Source of the DNA: Parasporobacterium sp.
GTDB lineage: Bacteria; Bacillota; Clostridia; Lachnospirales; Lachnospiraceae
Length of the DNA: 64,000 nucleotides
Direction of reading: 5' to 3'
Assembly: GCA_017459985.1 (NCBI GenBank)
Contig: JAFUBX010000001.1
Span: 62,001 to 126,000, forward strand
The position numbers and the translations under genes were made by a program. Shown here piece after piece: positions 5,364 to 44,875 of this stretch (its first letter is position 1; the number at the start of each line of letters is the position of its first letter). The notes beneath the pieces are model-generated. The model was not told the origin of the DNA, made no database searches, and saw only the letters and a program-made list of their open reading frames with translations.

Positions 5364-6152
5364 TTAATCCGACAGCAGCATCCGGTCATTGTCCAGCTCT
5401 TCCCCGACCCGGGTTTTGAATTTATCCAGAAGGTCTTTCACCGTGAGTCCCGACCGCTCTTCTCCGCAGACATCGTAGATGATCTTTCCCTGATTCATCA
5501 TCAGGGTCCGGTTGCCGAGATCCAGAGCGTTCTGCATGTTGTGGGTAATCATCAGACAGGTCAGCTGATTCTCTCCGATCACATCCCGGGTGATCTTCAG
5601 GACCTTCTCAGCGGTTGCCGGATCCAGCGCCGCGGTGTGCTCATCCAGAAGCAGCAGTTTGGGGGGATGATAGGTGGCCATCAGCAATGTCAAAGCCTGT
5701 CTCTGACCGCCGGACAGAAGTCCCACCGGCTGGCTCATCCGCTCCTCCAGTCCCATACCAAGCACCGCCACCCGGTCCCGGAATTCCTTCTTTTCCCTGC
5801 CGGACAGGATCGACAGCCAGCCGCCTTTTCCTGCGGCCAATGCCATGTTCTCCATAATGCTGATGTCCGGAGCTGTCCCCAGCATCGGATCCTGAAACAG
5901 CCGTCCGATCATCCGGGCTCTTTTGTGTTCCTGCATCAGCGTAATATCCTGACCGTCCAGCTCGATGGTTCCCTCATCGGTAAAAAAAGATCCTCCGATG
6001 GCGTTGAACAGCGTGGATTTGCCGGCTCCGTTCGCTCCGATTATGGAAATGAAATCTCCCCTCCGGACATGAAGGGACAGCTGATCCAGCGCCTTTTTGG
6101 CGTTGATCGTCCCCGGATTGAAGGTCTTTGAGATGCGGTTAATCTTCAGCAT
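5364..6152 (-). CDS. ABC transporter ATP-binding protein of the tryptophan-type importer (TrpZ-like)
   Basis: This 262-residue ATPase starts at ATG 6152, seven bases inside the end of the permease gene, with GGGAGG ten bases upstream; translation is probably coupled. Walker A reads GANGAGKST, the ABC signature is LLSGGQRQALTLL and Walker B is LLLLDEHTAALDP. It would power uptake together with the upstream permease and binding protein. Placement in a Trp T-box-controlled operon after trpB2 points to tryptophan, indole or a precursor as substrate. This matches the TrpXYZ systems known in streptococci and clostridia. The open frame extends upstream of 6152, but that part overlaps the permease and is not real coding. 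Confidence 0.88.
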   Translation of the reverse strand: MLKINRISKTFNPGTINAKKALDQLSLHVRRGDFISIIGANGAGKSTLFNAIGGSFFTDEGTIELDGQDITLMQEHKRARMIGRLFQDPMLGTAPDISIMENMALAAGKGGWLSILSGREKKEFRDRVAVLGMGLEERMSQPVGLLSGGQRQALTLLMATYHPPKLLLLDEHTAALDPATAEKVLKITRDVIGENQLTCLMITHNMQNALDLGNRTLMMNQGKIIYDVCGEERSGLTVKDLLDKFKTRVGEELDNDRMLLSD

Positions 6153-25856: not shown

Positions 25857-27446
25857 TTATGCAGCTCGCTTTTTCAGAAGATATATCACCGTTTTCATAA
25901 GCAGATTAACCAGCAGAATGATCAGGGATACAAACGCTGCGCACTCCAGCTGCATCTGGCCCTCAAACTGTGTAATCATCAGAGCCAGAGGTTTATTCGC
26001 TGCTGTCGCGAGAAATGATACAGCCGAAATCGTCATCATACAGTTTACGAAGAAATAACTCATCATCTCCAGGATCGTATCTTTCGACTGAGGCAGAACC
26101 ACATCCTTAATCATGTTCCATTTCCTGATTCCCATGGTGGATCCGACATATTCAAGATTCTCATTGATCTTCCCGAATGTATTGTAGATCATCAGATAAG
26201 GAGATGCGAAGAAATGCATGGAGTTTACCAGGAACAGCATCGCAAAGGTTCCGTATATCAGGCTCCCCTTAAAAAACATAATATAGGATAATCCAAGCAC
26301 CAGTCCCGGAACTGCCAGTGTGGTAATGGACATCAGATGCAGCACATAGGACAGTTTTGTTTTCCGGCGCCCTGTCAGATAAGCGTTCAGCACTGCAAGA
26401 AATGATCCGATAACAGAGACCGCAGCCGCAATAATCAGAGAATGAATCAGGTATTTCCCCGCTCCCATATTGATTGCCTGTCTTGCATTGGATAAGGAAA
26501 AGGACATATCCAGCGGATATTTCTCCACAAATCCAAGAACCGCAAAAGAACAAATCGGAAGAAAGATCAGCAAAATGACGAATCCGATCACAGCATAGGC
26601 TGCGCAGTCTCTTTTTCTGTTCTTTTTAATGTTATAGGGCTGTCCGACGAAGGCTCCGTTTCCTTTGTCCCGGTTCGTGATATCCAGAATACAGGCCACC
26701 AGTGCAGGGATCAGCAGAATCATACCGATCACACTGCCTTTTCCGAAATCCAGCATTCCTATGACATCCTGATACATCATCACCGGCAATGTTGTATATT
26801 TTCCGCCAATCATCAGAGGAACGCCATAATCTGTGATCACCATAGTGAATGTGGCAAACACAACGGATATCAGCGGCTTTCTTAAATATGGAAGCGTGAT
26901 TGCAAAAAAGCGGTCCATCGGTCTCAGTCCCATCACAGAAGCAGCTTCGTAGGGGGTTCCGTTCTCATAGCGCAGAACATCAAACAGCATCAGATAGGCA
27001 ACCGGAAAAGAATACATGACGGAACCCGCCACAATTCCCCAGAAGCCATAGATTCCGCTCTCCAGCCCCAGAAGTCTTGACAGCCAGCCATTAGAGCCCA
27101 GGATAATGATCAGTCCCATCCCATGGGAAATGGAAGGAATCAGCATGGGGATCGAAAGCAGGGTATGAAACACTGTCTTATGTTTCACGTTCGTCCGGGC
27201 AACACACCAGGACAAAAGCCCCGCAAGCCCGACGGAAATCATCGTTGCAGCCGAAGCAGCCGCGAGGGAATGTCCCAGCGCCCTGGAAAACTTTTTGGCT
27301 GTCAGCATCCCGATGACATCAACAGAAACCATTGTGGAAAGCATTCTGGCCAGGGGAAGAATGATCGTGATCAGCCAGAAAACACACAGCAGGATCTTCA
27401 TTGCCGTGGAGGGAGTCCATTTCCGGATTATGAAATTCCTTTTCAT
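25857..27446 (-). CDS. ABC importer permease, two-domain fused (iron/aminoethylphosphonate type)
   Basis: This 529-residue protein has about 12 membrane segments made of two homologous halves. Each half has a coupling-loop motif: YEAASVMGLRPMDRFFAITLP in the first and LEYVGSTMGIRKWNMIKDVVLP in the second. One polypeptide thus replaces a permease dimer, as in FbpB and PhnU/PhnV-like systems for ferric ion or 2-aminoethylphosphonate. Its ATG overlaps the end of the ATPase gene by 4 bp. Context with a LicC-like cytidylyltransferase favours a phosphorus-containing organic solute over iron, but this is inference. Confidence 0.87.
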   Translation of the reverse strand: MKRNFIIRKWTPSTAMKILLCVFWLITIILPLARMLSTMVSVDVIGMLTAKKFSRALGHSLAAASAATMISVGLAGLLSWCVARTNVKHKTVFHTLLSIPMLIPSISHGMGLIIILGSNGWLSRLLGLESGIYGFWGIVAGSVMYSFPVAYLMLFDVLRYENGTPYEAASVMGLRPMDRFFAITLPYLRKPLISVVFATFTMVITDYGVPLMIGGKYTTLPVMMYQDVIGMLDFGKGSVIGMILLIPALVACILDITNRDKGNGAFVGQPYNIKKNRKRDCAAYAVIGFVILLIFLPICSFAVLGFVEKYPLDMSFSLSNARQAINMGAGKYLIHSLIIAAAVSVIGSFLAVLNAYLTGRRKTKLSYVLHLMSITTLAVPGLVLGLSYIMFFKGSLIYGTFAMLFLVNSMHFFASPYLMIYNTFGKINENLEYVGSTMGIRKWNMIKDVVLPQSKDTILEMMSYFFVNCMMTISAVSFLATAANKPLALMITQFEGQMQLECAAFVSLIILLVNLLMKTVIYLLKKRAA

Positions 27447-28231
27447 TTACATATTCCCTCCGTCGGAACGGCAAACCGGATCAGGGAATGAATCTTGATC
27501 TCGATATTTTTAATAACAAAATTTCGGATATAATCATCTGCGGGATGATCAATGATATTTGCCGGTGTATCCAACTGATGGATTTCGCCTGCATCCATCA
27601 CCATGATCCTGTCAGACAGGGCAAATGCCTCCTCCTGATCATGGGTAATATAGATCATCGTCGTGCCGAACCTCTTCTGCAGTTCTTTCAGTTCACTTCG
27701 CAGAGACAGACGGGTATCCACATCCAACGCAGACATCGGCTCATCAAACAAAATCACATCCGGATTCAGTGCAAGCGTCCTGGCGATCGCCACCCTTTGC
27801 TGCTGACCGCCGGAAAGCTGCGCCAGTTTTTTCTCCAGATGTCCTGAGAGACCGACAAGTTCCAGCATCTCCCTTGCTTTCTGGTTTGCCTCTTCTTTAC
27901 TGAAGGTTCCTCTGAGTGTCTCGCTCTTCCTCAGGGCGTATGCCACGTTTTTCAGCACCGACATATTTTCAAACAGAGCATAGTTCTGAAACACAATCCC
28001 CATCTTTCTTTTTGAAGGAGAGAGCGATGTGATCTCTTCCCCGTCTTTAAAGATGCTCCCGCTGTCAGCCGTTTCCAGCCCGATAAGAATCCTCAGAATT
28101 GTGGTTTTTCCGCAGCCGGACGGCCCGAGAATGGATAAAAATTCTCCCTCCCGGACCGTGAAGCTGACATCATGCAATACACCTGTCTGCCCAAATGATT
28201 TCGTCAAATTGTTAATAACCAGTTTATCCAT
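27443..28231 (-). CDS. ABC importer ATP-binding protein (PotA/FbpC/PhnT-like)
   Basis: This 262-residue ATPase starts at ATG 28231 behind CAGGA, 10 bases after the binding-protein stop. Walker A is GPSGCGKTT, the signature is LSGGQQQRVAIART and Walker B is VILFDEPMSALD, with switch ITHDQEEAF. The family covers spermidine, ferric ion, sulfate and 2-aminoethylphosphonate importers. It lacks the extra C-terminal regulatory domain of PotA or MalK (about 350 residues), so no trans-inhibition domain is present. It works with the neighbouring permease and binding protein. Confidence 0.9.
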   Translation of the reverse strand: MDKLVINNLTKSFGQTGVLHDVSFTVREGEFLSILGPSGCGKTTILRILIGLETADSGSIFKDGEEITSLSPSKRKMGIVFQNYALFENMSVLKNVAYALRKSETLRGTFSKEEANQKAREMLELVGLSGHLEKKLAQLSGGQQQRVAIARTLALNPDVILFDEPMSALDVDTRLSLRSELKELQKRFGTTMIYITHDQEEAFALSDRIMVMDAGEIHQLDTPANIIDHPADDYIRNFVIKNIEIKIHSLIRFAVPTEGICK

Positions 28232-28241
28232 TGGTTCCTGA

Positions 28242-29231
28242 TTAAAACTCCCAGTTTTCCAGAAGACGCTGCTTTTCCTCTGTCGTATTGTCTGACATAT
28301 CCGCATATGGAATATCCGTCGGATAATTCTCTATTTCAAATGTAATATCTTTATAGATCTGTTCCGGATAGAACAGCTCCTTATCCTCTTTGACAAGGGT
28401 ATTGTAGAAGAAATCAAAGACTTCTTTGACAGCAGGGTTTTCCTGCTTTCCTTCCGGCATTGCATATCCATACAGGGAATACGGGGATCCCTCTTCAAAG
28501 AACAGAAGTTTCAGATCAGCCCCATCATTGATCTGGGTTACAGCCTGTGCCGTCATACCAAGACCAATCGCTGCCTCTCCCTGTACCAGGGCATTCACAG
28601 GGCCCGAGCCTGAGGACGTGAACTGAAGAATATTTTCTCCCAATTCAGAGAAATAATCAAATGCTTCCTCTTCTCCCCATGCATTGACAAGGCTCTTCAC
28701 GAACATGTATCCGGTTCCTGAAGACTTGGGATCCGGCATGGAAATCAGACCCTTATATTCCGGTTTCAGCAGGTCTTCATAACAAGTGGGTTCTTCCAGC
28801 CCTTTTTCCGTAAGAACTTCCGGATTAATAATAATGGCTCCGCCGTTTCTTGTCTCCGGAAGATATCTTCCGCTTGGTGCAATGGCGTCCTCCACAAAAA
28901 TCGTCTGATCATATTCAGACAGATCACATAAATACTCCTCTACCAACCCGGCATAGCTGTAGTCCAGATCATAGATGATGTCGATATCTGTATCGGTTCC
29001 TTCTGCGGCCAGTTTCGCAGCCAGATTTCCGGTCGGCATATATTCGATCGTGATGTCATACTGCGGAAACTCCTGGGTAAGTCTCTGAAGGAAATATTCA
29101 TTGCGGTATTCCTCCGCGCCGGAATAAATCACGACCCGATTATCCTGCGCTGCAGCTGCGGGTATCATACTTGCTGAAATCGTAACTGCCAGCATAGCGG
29201 CTGCAGTCAGACAAGTGAGCAGTCTTTTCAT
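28242..29231 (-). CDS. Family 1 extracellular solute-binding protein of the ABC importer
   Basis: This 329-residue protein has a signal peptide (MKRLLTCLTAAAMLAVTI, cleavage near AAAAQ) with no clear lipobox. The mature chain begins VVIYSGAEEYRNEYF and includes LAAEGTDTDIDIIYDLD and GYAMPEGKQENPAVKEVFDFF. This is the layout of binding proteins for ferric ion, thiamine, spermidine or 2-aminoethylphosphonate. The two or three tyrosines typical of ferric sites are not evident. The gene has its own promoter inside a 13-bp inverted repeat, and TAAGGAGG precedes the ATG. Ligand unknown; a phosphonate or phosphocholine-like compound is proposed from context. Confidence 0.85.
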   Translation of the reverse strand: MKRLLTCLTAAAMLAVTISASMIPAAAAQDNRVVIYSGAEEYRNEYFLQRLTQEFPQYDITIEYMPTGNLAAKLAAEGTDTDIDIIYDLDYSYAGLVEEYLCDLSEYDQTIFVEDAIAPSGRYLPETRNGGAIIINPEVLTEKGLEEPTCYEDLLKPEYKGLISMPDPKSSGTGYMFVKSLVNAWGEEEAFDYFSELGENILQFTSSGSGPVNALVQGEAAIGLGMTAQAVTQINDGADLKLLFFEEGSPYSLYGYAMPEGKQENPAVKEVFDFFYNTLVKEDKELFYPEQIYKDITFEIENYPTDIPYADMSDNTTEEKQRLLENWEF

Positions 29232-29253
29232 TTTTCAATCCTCCTTAAAAAGA

Positions 29254-29296
29254 AAATGTTCAATATCTAGTATATATAACCAAATATTGAACATTT
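29254..29296 (-). promoter_or_regulatory. Importer operon promoter inside a 13-bp inverted repeat (operator)
   Basis: Perfect arms AAATGTTCAATAT (29254-29266) and ATATTGAACATTT (29284-29296) are separated by 17 bases. On the minus strand a -35 TTGACA overlaps the right arm and a TATATA -10 lies between the arms, so bound protein would block RNA polymerase. A related sequence, AATGTTGAAAAAT, sits just upstream of the winged-helix/LicC gene. Confidence 0.8.
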
Positions 29297-29318
29297 GTCA
29301 AAGGAAAATGAACGTCTT

Positions 29319-30209
29319 TCAGATATCATAGGTTTTATCGATTGCTTTCAGTTCCCTGAAGGTGTCTATCTCCACGATATCCGCATCAAAGCATTCCCGT
29401 ACTTCTACTTTATAATGTTCTCTCTTATAAACCAGGGGAACCTGCTCCCAATATCGTTCCTTGCCGCCCGGAGAATGGTAGACATCCTCAATATCCTGTG
29501 AAAGACGATGTCCGTCCGGCTCCGTCCAGTAAGAAATCCCGACCATCTGCCAGCAGTCTGTCCCGCCGATCTTTTCATCGGTAATGATCCCGTCCCGGAC
29601 CTCGACACACCAGTCATCGGTCCGGTCTTTTTTGATCGCCAGAAAATCTGACCGGTAATGATACCGTTTCAGGATCTTCGGATTATACAGCAGGAGATCC
29701 GCTTCCAGCACATAGGCGTTAGACAGCATATACCGCGCAACCAGAGCGGAACTGATATTATTGGCTTCGTTATATGCCGGATTTTCGATAAAACGGATCA
29801 TCGGATATTTATACAGCAGCTGATCAAACTGCTCGGCCAGATACCCTCTGACGATATAGATCTCATTGATCCCGATCTGAAGACACGCATCAATCAGATG
29901 ATCAATGATCCGGGTACCGTGAACCCGGACCAGCGGTTTCGGCGTATTGAATGTAATCGGAACCATGCGGGATCCGAAACCGGCTGCAATGAAAATAGCC
30001 CGTTTTACCCGATAGGGTTCCAGCGCATTCAGTCCGCGTTCTGTAATTTTTCCGTCCTCCATCAATCCCTGTGCCAAAAGTTCCTTTACCGTTTTATTGA
30101 TCGTTCCGAGAGAGTGCCCTGTAACCTTCTCCAGATCCCTCTGGGTCAGAACCGTTTTTTCCTCTGCCAATGCAGCCAGGATATTAAATTGTTTTCTGGT
30201 CAGTTCCAT
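29319..30209 (-). CDS. Winged-helix domain fused to LicC-like CTP:phosphocholine/phosphonate cytidylyltransferase
   Basis: This 296-residue protein has a winged helix at residues ~1-66 (LTRKQFNILAALAEE, LTQRDLEKVTGHSLGTINKT). A nucleotidyltransferase domain from ~67 carries AAGFGSRMVPITFNTPKPLV, LEADLLLYNP, VGISYWT and YWEQVPLVY, all aligning by eye with LicC. LicC makes CDP-choline from phosphocholine; its relative PntC makes CMP-2-aminoethylphosphonate. No choline kinase or LicD gene is adjacent, so an already phosphorylated or phosphonate substrate may be imported. DNA-binding plus ligand-activating domains in one chain recall BirA. The operator upstream of the importer fits a repressor role. 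Domain calls are firm, the substrate is open. Confidence 0.85.
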   Translation of the reverse strand: MELTRKQFNILAALAEEKTVLTQRDLEKVTGHSLGTINKTVKELLAQGLMEDGKITERGLNALEPYRVKRAIFIAAGFGSRMVPITFNTPKPLVRVHGTRIIDHLIDACLQIGINEIYIVRGYLAEQFDQLLYKYPMIRFIENPAYNEANNISSALVARYMLSNAYVLEADLLLYNPKILKRYHYRSDFLAIKKDRTDDWCVEVRDGIITDEKIGGTDCWQMVGISYWTEPDGHRLSQDIEDVYHSPGGKERYWEQVPLVYKREHYKVEVRECFDADIVEIDTFRELKAIDKTYDI

Positions 30210-30241
30210 ATCTTTTTCCCTTTTTTATTTTTCAACATTCT

Positions 30242-32965
30242 TCATTCATCCAGTTTTTCCCAGGCACTCTTATCGTAAATATTGCCGTGGTTCACCCACC
30301 ACGCTCCGTCGGAAGTATCAAAGACATTTCCTCCGTTTTCAAAAATATTCCAGTTGTGGGAAGATGTAATCGGATAAGTATCCTTATGCAGTTCTTCTGT
30401 AATCGGCTGCCCGGTGTAGGGGTTGACCGGATCGTCAATCAGATCCTTCATGGCAAGATAAGGAACATCCGCCGTAGTCATAAACTCGTCGGAAACGGTA
30501 TACTCTGCTGCTTCAAAATCCTTTACCATCAGCAGGGCATTGATGTTCATGGCATCCCAGTCATCCGCGACCAGAAGATCTTCAAATTCTTCCAGTTCTT
30601 CTCCATGATCGGAAACCAGAATGATCCGGGTATTGTCATAAACCCCCATTTCCCGCATATAATCAAACCATTCTCCAAGCTTGAGAAAAGCTGCCATGTT
30701 CACATGATAATGTCCCATCCCCCAGGTTGATGTGATCAGGGCGGTTCTTCCGTTCAGGGTAAACCGCTCCATATGTTCAAAGGGATCACTGGTCACCGTT
30801 GCCGCCGGTTCATATTCCGGCGTCTGAAGGATGGAAGGCCCGTGAGTCGTATCGTTTTCCAGCAGAAGCAGCTGATCCTGGTTTCCTTCCTGGATCTTTG
30901 TAAGCTCCGGCAGCTTATACAAAACGGAATAGGAATACAGAAATTCATCCGAGCAGGAAAGCGTCCCCTGTTCTGCCGTCGAATAATAGTTTCCGTTATT
31001 ATAGACCGTATTCTGCAGGATCGTCGGAACAGAGCGCATCAGACTGTAGAAGAAAAAGTTTCTCTTCTGGGTCAGTTTGATTGCAGGGCTGAAGTTCTCC
31101 AGCAGTTCGTCGGCATAGGCTGCATAGGTATAATAGGTCGAGAGATGATCGATTCCGTCATAGATGGTGAAATCCGGCACATAGCTGGCATACCCGGCAT
31201 AGGGCGGATCCGAGATTGTGACATGATAGCCCTCCCCGGAGAAGATTGCCGGCATCACTTTCAATGCTTCATTGTTCTTATCTCCAAGCCATTCGTCCGC
31301 TCTTTCGTTCATTTTCATCGGGGTATATTCATATCCCCCGAAGATGGACGGAGCGCTGAAATTGGTATGCCCCCCAAAGCTGGTCATATTCGGATAATAT
31401 GTAAACCCTGCGAACTGCTCCTGAAGTTCCGGTTTTTCATTGAAAATATAGGGCACATAACTTCCGATGGCCCGATCCAGCATAAGAACGATCACATTGC
31501 GGCCTTCCCTGCTCAGCGTATAGATCTGTTCCAGATCTTCAATCACAGAACCGGAGTCTTTTTCCGTTCCGGACTGATTGTTCGCGGAATGGCGCAGTTT
31601 TTCCGCAGAATCCAACGTCTGTATCGTATTGAATATGCTGACTGCTGCCAGAACGATCACTCCGGCGATCAGAATAAAGTAAATAAAGTCCACGATCTTT
31701 CCCAGGTATTTCATGACCAGGATCAGTATGATCGCCAGCGCCGCCGCAGCCAGCAGATTGATCAGCTTCTCGGAGCCGGTGTAAAAGGGCATCTCATTAA
31801 ACACCAGAGAGGTGGACATGACGCCGAGGCTCTTGGAAAACAGAAGGAAATCCAGCAGAAATACTCCGGAAAGAACAAAAACCGCATAGGTCAGGATATT
31901 CCGGACCTTTGTCTTTGACATGTAATAATAGATCCCAAGCCAGATCAGAAAGAATCCGGCGCAGATGCATACATTGTTCAGAACCAGCGTGAAGGGAGTC
32001 GCCATCCTGGTGGAAAACTCCGTCGGGGATGAACTGATGACCGACATGGGGATCACAACGCCCAGAAGGATCGTGATCAGAACGGATCCCAGCAGGAAAG
32101 TACGCAGTTTCATCGGCTTCGGTTCCGGGCGTTCCGGATGCCGTTTCCGGAACAGAGTAATCAGGGAAGGCGCCTGGCAGATCAGACAGATGATCACCGC
32201 CAGCAAAGCTCTCTTCGGCGTGGATAAAATCCCGGAAGCGAATGCCGCGATCAGAATCAGTACTCCGACAACGGAAAAGAAGAGATTGATGGTTCTTCTG
32301 CTCTTCACCAGTTTCATAAAGACATTCTTCAGCACAGAGAAGATCTGATTCAGCGTCCAGTAAAAGACCAGTCCGGAAGGACTGTCATACAGAAGCACCA
32401 GAAAGATCACGGCGATTCCGTAGGTCTGGATCTTGTCCTTCAGCGGAAATCCCTTCAGATAAATGAATGCGGAGACCACATTGATGAGGGTCATGATGAC
32501 CGGCATGATATTGATGCTGAAGGAACCGAAAGAAAGCAGCTGATCCGGGGCTCCCAGATCCTTCAGAAACAGGAAGGAGACTCCGTTCAGAAGAGACAGA
32601 TGGGACAGATAATGATATGCCGCAATGAAAAACGGCACCTGCAGAAGCAGCGGAAAGGTGCTGCGCAGCGCATAAAACGGTTTGTAATTCTGCTGCCGGT
32701 AGTAGGTCGTCAGCATCATATACCGTTCGTCCCCTTTAAAGGTACTCTTGATCCGGCCGACCCGATAGGCCATGGAAGCGACCTTGTCCCGTTCCTGCTC
32801 CTGGATCGCATCCGCCCTCCGGTACAGCGGAAGGGCAAGAAAATTCATGACAATGCTGATCGCAAAGATCGCCAGCGCCGGATGTTCCTGCAGAAGGAAA
32901 AAGATCACCTCAAAGATCAGTTCCAGAGGCATTATAAATAAATTAAAGAAAAAATCACCTATCAT
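30242..32965 (-). CDS. YidC/Oxa1-like domain fused to a sulfatase/LTA-synthase-like catalytic domain
   Basis: This 907-residue protein has residues ~1-220 resembling YidC: a hairpin with LPLYRRADAIQEQERDK, then LRSTFPLLLQVPFFIAAYHYL and GLVFYWTLNQIFSVLKN. Residues ~225-450 add about six membrane segments. From ~490 an alkaline-phosphatase-superfamily domain follows: VIVLMLDRAIG (metal Asp), GGHTNFSAPSIFGG (likely nucleophile Thr or Ser), His 708 in THGP and LVSDHGEE near 786. That superfamily includes lipoteichoic acid synthase and phosphoethanolamine transferases. The start overlaps the TagF-like stop by one base (TAATG). I infer a surface-polymer transferase with its own membrane module; no such fusion is familiar to me. 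Confidence 0.8.
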   Translation of the reverse strand: MIGDFFFNLFIMPLELIFEVIFFLLQEHPALAIFAISIVMNFLALPLYRRADAIQEQERDKVASMAYRVGRIKSTFKGDERYMMLTTYYRQQNYKPFYALRSTFPLLLQVPFFIAAYHYLSHLSLLNGVSFLFLKDLGAPDQLLSFGSFSINIMPVIMTLINVVSAFIYLKGFPLKDKIQTYGIAVIFLVLLYDSPSGLVFYWTLNQIFSVLKNVFMKLVKSRRTINLFFSVVGVLILIAAFASGILSTPKRALLAVIICLICQAPSLITLFRKRHPERPEPKPMKLRTFLLGSVLITILLGVVIPMSVISSSPTEFSTRMATPFTLVLNNVCICAGFFLIWLGIYYYMSKTKVRNILTYAVFVLSGVFLLDFLLFSKSLGVMSTSLVFNEMPFYTGSEKLINLLAAAALAIILILVMKYLGKIVDFIYFILIAGVIVLAAVSIFNTIQTLDSAEKLRHSANNQSGTEKDSGSVIEDLEQIYTLSREGRNVIVLMLDRAIGSYVPYIFNEKPELQEQFAGFTYYPNMTSFGGHTNFSAPSIFGGYEYTPMKMNERADEWLGDKNNEALKVMPAIFSGEGYHVTISDPPYAGYASYVPDFTIYDGIDHLSTYYTYAAYADELLENFSPAIKLTQKRNFFFYSLMRSVPTILQNTVYNNGNYYSTAEQGTLSCSDEFLYSYSVLYKLPELTKIQEGNQDQLLLLENDTTHGPSILQTPEYEPAATVTSDPFEHMERFTLNGRTALITSTWGMGHYHVNMAAFLKLGEWFDYMREMGVYDNTRIILVSDHGEELEEFEDLLVADDWDAMNINALLMVKDFEAAEYTVSDEFMTTADVPYLAMKDLIDDPVNPYTGQPITEELHKDTYPITSSHNWNIFENGGNVFDTSDGAWWVNHGNIYDKSAWEKLDE

Positions 32966-34227
32966 TACTTTTCCTCACCGGATGAAGGATCGCTCAGTTC
33001 CTTTAGTTTCCGTTCCAGATAGTCTGCGGTCCTTACGGTTGCCTCGCCGACATTTCCCCATACCTCCGGCAGAGTTTCCTCCCAGCCCGTCTGGTACCGG
33101 CTGTCGCGGATCACTTCGTCGATCAGATGCTTCATGTTTGAGATATCCTCTTTTTTCAGCTGTCGCCCGATCTTTTCCAGAGTCGCCAGGATCCAGGGAG
33201 TTTCCTCCAGCCAGTCCGCATCATAGGGAGATTTGTCGAATTCCGTATCCGTGTAGATCACCGGTTTCTGAAACACATAACAGAAATCAAAAATCACACC
33301 GGAAAAATCCGAGATTAGAAGATCTGATTTTCGGAGCACCTCAAAATTATCATTGTCATAATTCCACTCCAAGTGGCTGCTGTCCGGAAACAGGGTCTGC
33401 AGCCTTTCCAGCAGCTCCGGATCCGAAGTCTTTGACTGGGGATGGGGGCGGATGATGATATGATACCCGGTATCCACAAGGCCCTGAATAAATGCCTCGC
33501 CGTATTTATTGAGGATGCTGCTGGCTCCCCAGGAGGGAGCGCACAGAATCGTCAGCGCTTCTGATTTCCCGGCATCGGTTTCGCTCTCTTCCTTCCGGAG
33601 TTTCATCCCGTCCAGATAAGTGGATCCGACAATCTCGATCTCCCTGGCCGGAAGTCCCCGCAGCTGTTCAAGCCGGCGGAGCTTTCCGATCTGAACCGGT
33701 CCGGTAGCCAGAACAGCGTCATAATAATCCAGGCCGAACTGCCGGTATAATGTCCCGTCATCCAGCCCATGGAATACATGCACATACCAGTCCACATCCT
33801 TGGACCGTTTCCACTGAAGAACATCCAGTCCCGGTGTAGTCGCCAGACAAATCCGGGCATTCATCACATTCAAACGGGCAAAGGCCTTATTGCCTTCGCC
33901 GATGAATCTGCAGCTGATGTTCTGAAAGGTACTCTGAAGGGCCGGATCATCCTCAGAGGCGGTCCAGTATTCACACCGGATTTTTCTTTTATCCAGTTCT
34001 TCACAGATCGGACGGAAAACATTCCAGTATCTCTTGCTGTCTGTAAAAATGACAATCGGAAGTTTGGAAGCGCCGCCCTTTGCCTTTCCTCCGTGAAGGG
34101 CGAATTTGAACTTGATCATAACCCCCCGGAGAACAAAAAACAGGGTCGTGGCAATCCCGATCACGATCGTGAACAGCATGGAACCGGTTCCGGGATCGAT
34201 ATAATTCAGATAATGAAATAACTGCAT
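32965..34227 (-). CDS. CDP-glycerol glycerophosphotransferase-like (TagF/TagB family) membrane protein
   Basis: This 420-residue protein has an N-terminal membrane helix with the motif YIDPGTGSMLFTIVIG. A GT-B-like catalytic region follows with VHVFHGLDDG, IIIRPHPQSKTSDPELLERL and LLISDFSGVIFDF, the residues typical of the Glyphos_transf family that builds poly(glycerol-phosphate) teichoic acids from CDP-glycerol. The HGL, RPHP and SD-S signature residues are all present. It is the first gene of the surface-polymer locus, has an extended -10 promoter, and overlaps the next gene by one base. A related CDP- or CMP-linked donor is possible, given the linked cytidylyltransferase. Confidence 0.87.
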   Translation of the reverse strand: MQLFHYLNYIDPGTGSMLFTIVIGIATTLFFVLRGVMIKFKFALHGGKAKGGASKLPIVIFTDSKRYWNVFRPICEELDKRKIRCEYWTASEDDPALQSTFQNISCRFIGEGNKAFARLNVMNARICLATTPGLDVLQWKRSKDVDWYVHVFHGLDDGTLYRQFGLDYYDAVLATGPVQIGKLRRLEQLRGLPAREIEIVGSTYLDGMKLRKEESETDAGKSEALTILCAPSWGASSILNKYGEAFIQGLVDTGYHIIIRPHPQSKTSDPELLERLQTLFPDSSHLEWNYDNDNFEVLRKSDLLISDFSGVIFDFCYVFQKPVIYTDTEFDKSPYDADWLEETPWILATLEKIGRQLKKEDISNMKHLIDEVIRDSRYQTGWEETLPEVWGNVGEATVRTADYLERKLKELSDPSSGEEK

Positions 34228-41923: not shown

Positions 41924-42479
41924 GTTCATGAAGCTGACCCTCCAGGCACAGATCCGGAAACCCGTTCTGTCTGAGGGCCTCGTAAAGGATGACGGCAGCG
42001 GAATTGGCCAGGTTCAGACTTCTTTTTTCCGCTGCCATGGGAATCCGGATACAGCTTTCCCTGTTCTGCATCAGGAGCTCCTCCGGGATCCCGGCGCTTT
42101 CTTTTCCGAACAGAATATAATCCCCTTCCCGGAACGCCGCCTTATCATAGCACATCCGGGATTTGGTGGTTGCCATCCAGATCGCCGCTTTCTCCCGGTC
42201 AGACGTTTCCGGAAGCGAAGGACACCCGGCAGCTTCCAGTGTTTCCGGGGCAAAACGGATCTGATCCGCACGCTTTTGAACAAAGTCCCGCCAGCTGTCA
42301 TACCGGGTCACATCCAGTTCGGACCAGTAATCCATACCGGCCCGTTTCAGTTGTTTATCATTCAGAAGAAATCCCAGCGGCCCGATCAGATGAAGCCTGC
42401 AGCCCGCAGCCAGACAGGTTCTTCCGATATTTCCGGTATTGGAAGGGATCTCCGGTTCCAGTAATACAATATTGAACAT
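41913..42479 (-). CDS. trmL: tRNA (cytidine/uridine-34-2'-O)-methyltransferase TrmL
   Basis: This 188-residue SPOUT methyltransferase has the family motifs NIVLLEPEIPSNTGNIGRTC near the N-terminus, LFGKESAGIPEELL and IPMAAEKRSLNLANSAAVILYE at the C-terminal knot. TrmL methylates the ribose of the wobble base of leucine tRNAs, using S-adenosylmethionine. The middle (residues ~75-95, APETLEAAGCPSLPETSDRE) is longer than the classic ~155-residue form. Its ATG overlaps the mutS2 stop (TAATG). It is the last gene of the long mfd-trmL run. Confidence 0.93.
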   Translation of the reverse strand: MFNIVLLEPEIPSNTGNIGRTCLAAGCRLHLIGPLGFLLNDKQLKRAGMDYWSELDVTRYDSWRDFVQKRADQIRFAPETLEAAGCPSLPETSDREKAAIWMATTKSRMCYDKAAFREGDYILFGKESAGIPEELLMQNRESCIRIPMAAEKRSLNLANSAAVILYEALRQNGFPDLCLEGQLHEHRW

Positions 42480-44875
42480 TATTTTAATTCCGCATAGGTG
42501 ACTCCGGAATCGCCGTCACCATACTCTGCTTCGTAACTTTTCCTGACTCTTTTGTCCCGGTGGAGCTTCTGCCGGACCGCATTGCGCAGTACGCCGGTTC
42601 CTTTGCCGTGAACGATCCGCACCTTTTCCAGATGGGCCATACAGGCGTCGTCCAGATATTTGTCCAGTTCGATCAGCGCATCATCCACATTCATCCCCAG
42701 CAGTTTGATTTCCGTTGACACCCCCATGGCTTTGGAAAACTGGATCTGCCCGGCTCCCGTTCTGGCACCCCGGGCAAATTTCGGCATCTGCTCCTGTTCT
42801 GAAGACTTCTCCAGGATCTCCAGATCATCCAGCCGGACCTCCATATTCATGGATCCCAGCCGGACGCCGACCCGCTGTTTGCCGTCCGGCCCTGACGTGG
42901 CCACCCCTTCCATATTCATGGAAAGAACCCGGACCGGAGTTCCTGCGGTGATCTCTTCCGGCGCCGGTTTCTTTTTGACGGTCTTTTTCCCGCCGGGAAG
43001 ATCGCCGATTCCGTCCAGGGCTTCTTTGACCTGTCTTCCCAGTTCCGTCCGGGTCCTTTCGAGAGCGGCCAGATTGACATTGCCCGAGACCTTCCGGATA
43101 TCCCGGATCGTCAGATCCGCGTAATCCTTCGCCTGTTTCAGAACCTGCGCAGCCTCGCTTTTTGCTTCCCGCAGGATCTCATTTTTCTTTTTCTCCAGGG
43201 CGGCCTTTTCTTTTTCCAGATCTTCCTGCATTTTCCGGGCCTGTGTCAGATCGTTCAGAGCTTCCTCCCGCTCGATCCGGGCCTTCTTTTTATTGACCTC
43301 GATATCGGCCAGAATATCCTCAAAGGCAATATTGCTGCTGTCCAGCCGTTCCTTCGCGTCCTCGATCAGCCTCTCATCCAGCCCCAGTTTCTGGGAGATG
43401 GCAAAGGCATTGCTCTTCCCGGGCAGTCCGATCAGCAGACGATACGTGGGCCGCAGGGTCTGGACATCGAATTCGCAGCAGGCATTCTGAACGCCTTTGG
43501 TGGACATGGCAAAAACCTTCAGTTCCGCATAATGGGTCGTGGCCATGCAGCGGCTCCCGAACTGATTCAGCCGCGTCAGGATCGACTGGGCCAGGGCAGC
43601 CCCCTCTGTAGGGTCCGTCCCGGAACACAGTTCATCCAGAAGGACCAAGGAGTCCGCGTCCGCCCGTTCCAGAATGCGGATAATGTTTTTCATATGGGAG
43701 GAGAAGGTGGACAGATTCTGCTCGATAGACTGCTCATCCCCGATATCCGCGTAGATCTCTTCAAAGACACAAAGGCCCGATCCGTCCAGTGCCGGGATAT
43801 GCATCCCTGCCTGTCCCATAAGACAGAGCAGACCGGTGGTTTTCAGGGAAACGGTTTTCCCTCCGGTATTGGGGCCCGTCACAATCAGCATGGAGAACTC
43901 CCGGCCGAGCTCCAGATCGATGGGAACCGCGGTCTTTACCGGGATCAGCGGATGTCTGGCCTTCTTCAGCTCGATCCGCTTCTCTTCATGGAATACAGGG
44001 GCATTTCCCCGGATACTCTCGGAATAACGGGCTTTGGCAAGAATAAAATCCAGCTCCGTCAGCAGCCGGAAATCCAGTTTCAGCGCCTCTGACCGGCCGC
44101 CGGCCATGTTGGACAAATGGGACAAAATCACCTGGATCTCCTCTGCTTCCGCCAGAGACAGTTCCTTCAGGTCATTATTCAGTTTTACCACTGCCATGGG
44201 CTCCACAAAGATCGTCGAACCGGACCCGGACTGGTCATGGACCATCCCCGGGACATGGGCTCTGTGTTCCTGTTTTACAGGAATGCAGTACCGGCCGTTC
44301 CGCATGGTGACCACACTGTCCTGCAGATAGGTCTTCATGGAAGTGCTGGTTACCATCTGATTCAGTGTCCTCTGTATCTGCAGCTTGGTCTGGTTCTGTT
44401 TCCGGCGGATATCCTTCAGTTTCGGAGAAGCATCATCCGCGATCTCGTCAATTCCTAAGATACAGCGTCTGATCTCACTGTTCAGCAGTTCACAGGGATC
44501 CACACTGCTGTAAAAAACAGAAAGAGAATCCTCCGGATCCTCTTCATTTTCAGGTCTCAGAAATTTACGGACAGACTCTGCCGTATCCAGGGTGGAAGAA
44601 ATGGAAAGCAGATCCTCACAGCTTAAGATACTGCCGATCTCCAGTCTCATGACACAGGGCCGGATGTCCTTCAGCTGCGCGAAGGAAGGACCGGATTTTT
44701 TCCGGAGTCTGGTCACTGCGTCCGTGGTCTGGGTCTGGGCAGTCCGGATCGCCTCCAGATCCGTCATCGGCAGCAGCCTGAGGCACATCTGCGCCCCGGA
44801 CTGGGAGCCCGCGTGTTCCGCCAGGATCCGGACGATTTTATCATATTCCAGTGTATGCAGTACTTTCTCGTTCAT
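42479..44875 (-). CDS. mutS2: MutS2-family ATPase/endonuclease
   Basis: This 798-residue protein starts at ATG 44875 (MNEKVLHTLEYDKIV); upstream residues of the open frame are not coding. Walker A is VTGPNTGGKTVSLKT, followed by DELCSGTDPTEGAALA and the MutS-type ATHYAELK. A coiled-coil (~510-620, KKKARIEREEALNDL) leads to a C-terminal Smr domain with VRIVHGKGTGVLRNAV. MutS2 has no mismatch-binding domain. It suppresses homologous recombination, and in Bacillus it splits collided ribosomes. The latter fits its neighbours here, which include several translation-quality and RNA-decay genes. Confidence 0.97.
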   Translation of the reverse strand: MNEKVLHTLEYDKIVRILAEHAGSQSGAQMCLRLLPMTDLEAIRTAQTQTTDAVTRLRKKSGPSFAQLKDIRPCVMRLEIGSILSCEDLLSISSTLDTAESVRKFLRPENEEDPEDSLSVFYSSVDPCELLNSEIRRCILGIDEIADDASPKLKDIRRKQNQTKLQIQRTLNQMVTSTSMKTYLQDSVVTMRNGRYCIPVKQEHRAHVPGMVHDQSGSGSTIFVEPMAVVKLNNDLKELSLAEAEEIQVILSHLSNMAGGRSEALKLDFRLLTELDFILAKARYSESIRGNAPVFHEEKRIELKKARHPLIPVKTAVPIDLELGREFSMLIVTGPNTGGKTVSLKTTGLLCLMGQAGMHIPALDGSGLCVFEEIYADIGDEQSIEQNLSTFSSHMKNIIRILERADADSLVLLDELCSGTDPTEGAALAQSILTRLNQFGSRCMATTHYAELKVFAMSTKGVQNACCEFDVQTLRPTYRLLIGLPGKSNAFAISQKLGLDERLIEDAKERLDSSNIAFEDILADIEVNKKKARIEREEALNDLTQARKMQEDLEKEKAALEKKKNEILREAKSEAAQVLKQAKDYADLTIRDIRKVSGNVNLAALERTRTELGRQVKEALDGIGDLPGGKKTVKKKPAPEEITAGTPVRVLSMNMEGVATSGPDGKQRVGVRLGSMNMEVRLDDLEILEKSSEQEQMPKFARGARTGAGQIQFSKAMGVSTEIKLLGMNVDDALIELDKYLDDACMAHLEKVRIVHGKGTGVLRNAVRQKLHRDKRVRKSYEAEYGDGDSGVTYAELK

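Follow-up and report, generated by a model that had tools for sequence, protein, structure and literature searches.

A stretch of 64,000 nucleotides from Parasporobacterium sp. (Clostridia; Lachnospiraceae), called the window here, encodes a 296-residue protein in which a winged helix-turn-helix (wHTH) domain is fused to a cytidylyltransferase domain. We propose, at a probability of about 0.75, that this wHTH-PntC protein is an enzyme-repressor, which would activate 2-aminoethylphosphonate (AEP) to CMP-AEP and repress the adjacent importer operon through two TGTTCA half-sites. The proposal starts from features that are plain in the sequence: the fusion, the intact catalytic residues, a conserved operator that overlaps promoter boxes in part of its sites, the linkage of this operator to genes of AEP synthesis and uptake, and its association with a motif of the recognition helix. 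The features concerned are the following.

29319..30209, minus strand: wHTH-PntC protein, 296 residues, from the translation of the open reading frame (ORF)
30012..30209, minus strand: N-terminal winged helix, residues 1-66, with the third helix at 34-46 and the motif SLGTIN
29322..30011, minus strand: cytidylyltransferase domain, residues 67-296, with G77xG79SR81, K91, E169, D171, E255, E280 and D282
29254..29296, no strand: full inverted repeat with perfect 13-bp arms
29257..29293, no strand: predicted operator, half-sites TGTTCA/TGAACA at 29257-29262 and 29288-29293, N25
29296..29301, minus strand: -35 hexamer TTGACA of the importer promoter, 6/6 to the consensus
29273..29278, minus strand: -10-like hexamer TATATA, 4/6 to TATAAT

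The initial annotation had placed DNA-binding and enzyme domains in one protein of 296 residues, and Pfam bears this out. The N-terminus is a MarR-type winged helix (MarR_2, 37.4 bits, cut-off 27), a nucleotidyltransferase domain lies behind it (NTP_transf_3, 42.7 bits, cut-off 27), and NTP_transferase and further winged-helix families also score above their cut-offs; a biotin ligase domain was not found in the same search at an E value of 0.1. The closest solved structure and sequence to the enzyme domain, which has the LicC/PntC nucleotidyltransferase fold, is LicC (1jyk, E 1e-29; 229 residues in the model), and it aligns solely with the part behind the winged helix, where the predicted structure sets four helices and a wing ahead of the enzyme domain. 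The catalytic residues are intact, and D282 among the acids we take to be a metal ligand. The GxG(T/S)Rx4-8PK motif, as defined in the accessible part of the PntC paper (PMC6697681), is present as GFGSR-8-PK at residues 77-91, and E280 aligns with LicC Glu216, given in that part as a metal ligand. In an alignment of 191 proteins (97 wHTH-PntC proteins, a class set at 53% identity or more and at least 55 residues before the motif, together with 59 choline kinase fusions, 29 LicC-only enzymes and 6 others), G77, R81 and K91 are kept in 97/97 wHTH-PntC proteins.

The importer promoter reads on the minus strand as TTGACA (29301-29296), 17 bp, and TATATA (29278-29273); the consensus promoter scan of the window did not list it, since TATATA ends in A and not in T. 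The arms of the inverted repeat, AAATGTTCAATAT (29254-29266) and ATATTGAACATTT (29284-29296), are 17 apart and complementary at 13/13 positions, and the repeat extends to 18 nt at 89%, is single-copy in the window and is absent from 100 shuffles (0 expected). It had been described as a perfect repeat enclosing the promoter; its perfection and the enclosure of the -10-like box stand, and the -35 box proves to be merely abutted. The half-site at 29293-29288 lies between the two promoter boxes, and that at 29262-29257 near the expected transcript start. An exact 12-mer copy of an arm at 42469-42480, at the start of a coding sequence, was set aside as chance. In the window's own genome (G000) the window site is the only operator match counted at spacings N24-26, and two further matches occur at N27 (L052 and L053).

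Relatives were found by protein similarity in two sets, one of 81 loci (1,008,241 bases) and one of 80 named Clostridia loci of 65-83% identity, picked by protein sequence alone and taken with up to 8 kb on each side. Merging the near-duplicate pairs L122/L127, L196/L198 and L031/L227 (the same stretch in the first and second set, respectively) left 158 loci. In the first set, TGTTCA-Nk-TGAACA has 32 occurrences at k = 24, 11 at k = 25 and 4 at k = 26 (47 in total), and the remaining 78 spacings of 0-80 hold 21; in the second set the counts are 22, 5 and 2 at k = 25, 26 and 27, with 13 at the remaining 58 spacings of 0-60. Of the occurrences in the merged loci, 76 fall at k = 24-27 and 37 at the remaining 77 spacings of 0-80. 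Five control hexamers yielded 0-3 exact matches in the named set against 29 for the operator, and 3-12 against 84 when one mismatch was allowed. Spacers are barely more alike than shuffled ones (mean identity 0.472 against 0.418 at N24, 0.368 against 0.356 at N25 and 0.413 against 0.353 at N26), so that mainly the hexamers and their distance are conserved. Judged by these comparisons, the operator core is TGTTCA-N24..26-TGAACA, with N25 in the window, rather than the full 13-bp arms; the conservation anticipated for the repeat before orthologous operons is thus found for the TGTTCA-N25-TGAACA core and not for the arms. Small excesses of half-site pairs at k = 48 (6, first set) and k = 39 (5, second set) are perhaps overlapping or double operators.

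Nearly all of the 47 first-set sites stand at or just upstream of the wHTH gene or the adjoining transporter gene, and of the 34 first-set loci that lack an exact site, 16 carry a copy with one mismatch at the corresponding position. In the named set, an annotated gene for a family protein, an importer or PepM follows 25/29 sites at a distance of -60 to 400 bp; the remaining four comprise those of L204, L212 and L229, 17-89 bp before the family gene, and that of L192, inside an ORF. The importer promoters of G001, G002 and G008 match the arrangement in the window. Sixty-five of the 74 exact N24-26 sites could be oriented, nine being without an annotated downstream gene in range, and 28 of these 65 overlap promoter-like boxes (L107, at a contig start, was scored as without promoter). 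A -10 box is fused to a half-site in 18/65 and a half-site abuts a -35 box in 9/65; of all 1482 TGTTCA in these loci, 54 are fused to a -10 box, the 18 included. Half-sites placed on promoter boxes, where such boxes are seen, fit a repressor. The half-sites are 30-32 bp apart from centre to centre, about three helical turns, so both winged helices would face one side of the DNA.

The operator also goes with the winged helix. It is found upstream, at one mismatch or less, in 111/139 loci whose protein has the S.G..N helix motif and in 5/19 of those without it (Fisher p 6e-6; 158 of 161 loci scored, three lacking a recognised family protein, with the three near-duplicate pairs retained). No upstream operator at this threshold accompanies the loci L038, L093 and L097, which have no enzyme of this kind with 30 or more residues before the catalytic motif, or the L086 copy with a truncated helix. 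Tandem paralogues occur at L033:6487-8340 and L085:6980-8817, one copy with the helix motif and the other degenerate.

The enzyme had been called LicC-type at first; the fold agrees with this name, but the evidence on the substrate favours AEP, as for PntC, over phosphocholine. Across the 80 named loci, AEP synthesis genes without a transporter are found in 34, a transporter without such genes in 34, both in 3 and neither in 9 (4 of these 9 on stretches under 7 kb), and phosphoenolpyruvate (PEP) mutase, PepM, is in the locus for 37. The next downstream partner is an AEP gene in 33 cases, an APC carrier in 21, an ABC importer in 14, none in 9 and another gene in 3. Neighbours in L086 exceed curated cut-offs as AEP aminotransferase (PhnW, 447/361), PEP mutase (410/320) and phosphonopyruvate decarboxylase (474/312). 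Two unrelated kinds of transporter are linked to the family, an ABC importer in 16 of the 80 loci and an amino-acid-permease-type carrier in 22. The latter, which replaces the ABC importer in L031 (AA_permease_2 in Pfam), L082, L083, L084 and L087 among others, is a candidate AEP transporter. According to the accessible part of the PntC paper, Glu104 and Glu196 of PntC contact the AEP amine, and LicC has Asp105 and Asp192 there (PMC6697681). E169 and E255 of the window protein align with these Asp residues, the second position through LicC only. Glu occupies position 169 in 96 of the 97 wHTH-PntC proteins, and their position 255 carries E (85), D (11) or T (1); among the LicC-only enzymes, position 169 is D in 18/29 and E in 4/29. 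The window genome (94.75% complete) gave no match to PEP mutase and none to choline kinase (PF01633, E 0.001), and it has one LicD and one gene of the wHTH-PntC kind, so that the bacterium probably scavenges AEP. Most likely, then, the protein is a PntC-type enzyme that represses AEP supply.

From this we infer a mechanism in which the protein would bind DNA as a dimer and repress rather than activate, with AEP as substrate and CMP-AEP as corepressor. The C-terminal domain would convert AEP and CTP to CMP-AEP, a donor for the decoration of a cell-surface polymer. Once demand is met, AEP or, most likely, CMP-AEP would occupy the active site, and the ligand-filled dimer would set its two winged helices on the two TGTTCA half-sites, cover the importer promoter and stop the uptake of AEP. 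In relatives with AEP synthesis of their own, the same protein would act on the promoter of its own gene and the PhnW-PepM-Ppd genes.

Ligands often release MarR-type winged helices from DNA, and the same protein and operator could work with the opposite response, AEP or CMP-AEP releasing the repressor or the bound protein acting as an activator. We regard this as unlikely, given that half-sites fused to -10 boxes or abutting -35 boxes fit occlusion better than activation, and that sites before a biosynthetic operon suit end-product corepression better than induction. The connection between operator and protein is a correlation, which would leave room for another transcription factor on the operator and a different role for the enzyme's winged helix. 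This is improbable: the operator tracks the intact recognition-helix motif, it is missing beside the enzymes with short N-termini, and, among the matches listed from a genome-wide search (see below), 7/8 places examined in carrier genomes lead to BCCT genes away from the regulator.

It is likewise doubtful that the substrate is phosphocholine and that the importer takes up a choline compound. LicC is the closest relative of known structure, but its Asp105 and Asp192 are Glu in the window protein, and the window genome has no choline kinase match; AEP synthesis genes in the loci of 37/80 relatives and the nearly invariant E169 also speak for AEP. There is, finally, a very small chance that the inverted repeat is an RNA hairpin, either the terminator of the wHTH gene or an attenuator of the importer. 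The repeat was flagged as terminator-like on the minus strand, with 18 pairs, 3 of them G-C, and a T-rich tail, a weak and A+T-rich structure behind the wHTH gene; but relatives keep the two hexamers and their spacing, with little information in flanks and spacer, and the importer transcript is expected to begin only after one arm of the repeat.

Several observations weigh against an AEP-dependent enzyme-repressor. The importer, whose genes are listed here, has the 2-AEP set phnS2/PhnT2/PhnU2 as its best NCBIfam models, and all three scores are below the curated cut-offs (170/393, 321/458 and 369/593 bits, respectively).

28242..29231, minus strand: importer substrate-binding protein, phnS2-like, below the NCBIfam cut-off
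27443..28306, minus strand: importer ATPase, PhnT2-like, below cut-off; the ATG at 28231 is, by eye, the likelier start
25857..27446, minus strand: importer double permease, PhnU2-like, below the NCBIfam cut-off

The similar sequence reported before the wHTH-PntC gene itself is at chance level. The 12-mer arm has 57 matches at three mismatches or fewer in the window where 58.7 are expected, and the region 30195-30700, upstream of the gene, holds no site closer than 3 mismatches to the two-half-site operator, so that autoregulation of the window's own gene is not supported. Of the 139 loci that have the helix motif, 28 are without an operator at one mismatch or less. Four among them, L090, L129, L134 and L212, do carry an exact site, which was missed through choices of start codon or annotation; others, such as L082, L158 and L165, have two-mismatch sites, which are indistinguishable from chance, or none. 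Sites in the 21 APC-linked loci are mostly imperfect (1 exact, 12 one-mismatch, 7 two-mismatch and 1 none), and 37/65 oriented sites have no recognised promoter box. All locus counts are of non-independent events, the loci being related by descent. As to the substrate, the 11/97 proteins with D at position 255 include importer-linked relatives, and the choline kinase fusions have E there in 59/59, so position 255 alone is not diagnostic. The PntC paper itself, in its accessible part, notes that charge may not decide substrate choice, one PntC sharing the aromatic residues of LicC (PMC6697681).

A sister branch consists of proteins of about 600 residues that combine the same winged helix with a LicC domain and a choline kinase domain; the L037 protein exceeds the Pfam cut-offs for HTH_24, NTP_transf_3 and Choline_kinase. 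A free LicC and a BCCT transporter are frequently encoded nearby, and the fusions share the operator, mostly at N24. The metal site could be scored in 58/59 fusions (L117 is gapped), counting Asp-to-Glu changes as kept and any residue other than D or E as lost. An acid equivalent to E280 or D282 is lost in 23 of the 26 fusions that have another LicC-type gene no more than 6 kb away, and in 1 of the 32 that have none; the three exceptions, in which the acid is kept with a second LicC-type gene near, adjoin a wHTH-LicC/PntC gene. The acid-losing fusions form one similarity group, with 52-64% identity to the L037 protein, and thus reflect few events. They are likely sensor pseudoenzymes (L037, L040, L041, L046, L048-L050, L098, L099, L102-L114 and L225), and the pattern suggests that a LicC domain without a metal-site acid was kept as a sensor once catalysis had moved elsewhere.

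TGTTCA-N24..26-TGAACA was also counted across 397 genomes, 216 of which have a match; the count is noisy (the reversed control also matches in many genomes, and many spacers are G+C-rich among the matches listed) and served only to pick places. Sixteen stretches were examined among the matches listed, with A+T-rich spacers plus others. Of the eight from family-carrying genomes, seven have the site upstream of a BCCT gene or at its start, at a distance from the regulator gene, and one (L148) has it elsewhere; of the eight from non-carrier genomes, one is at a BCCT gene and seven are elsewhere or inside other ORFs. The sole non-carrier BCCT site among these matches is L156, from G392, a congener of G032. 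These sites, TGTTCA-N24-TGAACA upstream of a BCCT-family gene or at its beginning and distant from the regulator gene, are those of L142-L147, L149 and L156. In L148, twin operators 77 bp apart (5786-5821 and 5863-5898) precede genes that by eye resemble ABC permeases and are a possible further member of the regulon. We think it fairly probable that these proteins make up one wHTH-cytidylyltransferase family of Clostridia with a shared operator, in which an AEP branch (wHTH-PntC) would control the uptake of AEP or its de novo synthesis, and a choline branch (wHTH-LicC-choline kinase) the choline transporters. In part of the latter branch, the cytidylyltransferase domain would have lost a metal-site acid because a second LicC took over catalysis, and would have become a ligand sensor.

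The wHTH-PntC gene is patchy in the phylum: among 398 genomes, a match at E 1e-60 or better occurs in only 4, one of which is the window's own. Two of the four belong to families other than that of the window, so the gene may be mobile between genomes. Upstream of it in the window lie two further genes.

30242..32965, minus strand: YidC domain fused to a sulfatase-type domain, with relatives in 15/80 related loci
32965..34227, minus strand: CDP-glycerol glycerophosphotransferase-like protein, with relatives in 14/80 related loci

One or both have relatives in 16/80 related loci, and their products may have a part in the synthesis or decoration of the polymer to which AEP is attached. The only LicD of the window genome lies in a polysaccharide-type cluster on contig C125 (L244:4044-8542), which has no exact operator. 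Next to LicD there, a class-V aminotransferase matches PhnW-AepZ below cut-off (139.6/360.8), and a further gene resembles, by eye, a cytidylyltransferase-oxidoreductase fusion; with the PhnW-AepZ match only below cut-off, we do not claim an AEP pathway at L244.

With the MarR family, the window protein shares the winged-helix DNA-binding domain; its own domain, however, has just about 66 residues with the enzyme directly after it, and its half-sites are 25 bp apart, whereas MarR proteins bind one compact palindrome. NadR of enterobacteria, a helix-turn-helix fused to a nucleotidyltransferase of the nicotinamide mononucleotide adenylyltransferase type, controls a cofactor pathway and an importer; it is alike in its fusion and differs in its ligand. 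PntC has the same fold, GxG(T/S)Rx4-8PK motif, Glu pair and PEP mutase neighbourhood, but in the PntC of known structure (6pd1/6pd2) the fusion partner is an AEP transaminase, and the window genome encodes an importer and gave no PEP mutase match. The closest parallel in logic is BirA, as the initial annotation had proposed. BirA, as described in the accessible parts of two papers, has an N-terminal helix-turn-helix, uses an activated ligand as corepressor, binds two spaced half-sites and controls genes of biosynthesis and transport (PMC4016012, PMC6391492). Our comparison supports the analogy, in that a two-half-site operator predicted across the family tracks the winged helix and precedes genes of AEP uptake or synthesis, just as BirA, a Group II biotin protein ligase, combines an N-terminal DNA-binding domain with such an operator before synthesis and transport genes. 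The differences are a catalytic domain of the PF12804 type in place of a biotin ligase, AEP as the presumed ligand, TGTTCA-N25-TGAACA as the operator and no known second step of protein modification. Since the catalytic domain differs, the wHTH-PntC protein is not a member of BirA's family, and it is most likely BirA logic carried out with another enzyme. In the literature covered (titles and the openings of abstracts, a scope that leaves most subscription journals and preprints outside) there is no report of a winged helix-LicC/PntC fusion or of this operator; the accessible part of PMC6697681 nowhere uses helix, regulat- or transporter, and that of PMC10434233 nowhere uses fusion, helix-turn-helix or transcription.

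If correct, the proposal would give a second, unrelated realisation of BirA logic, and a circuit by which Clostridia control how phosphonate and phosphocholine decorate their surfaces; among the relatives are many genomes recorded from gut and rumen. Regulator and operator together would make AEP and choline transporters easier to recognise from DNA. Pairs in which one cytidylyltransferase domain is intact and the other is damaged at the metal site are a natural test of the change from enzyme to sensor, and part of the choline branch would represent an enzyme caught in the course of becoming the sensing half of a transcription factor.
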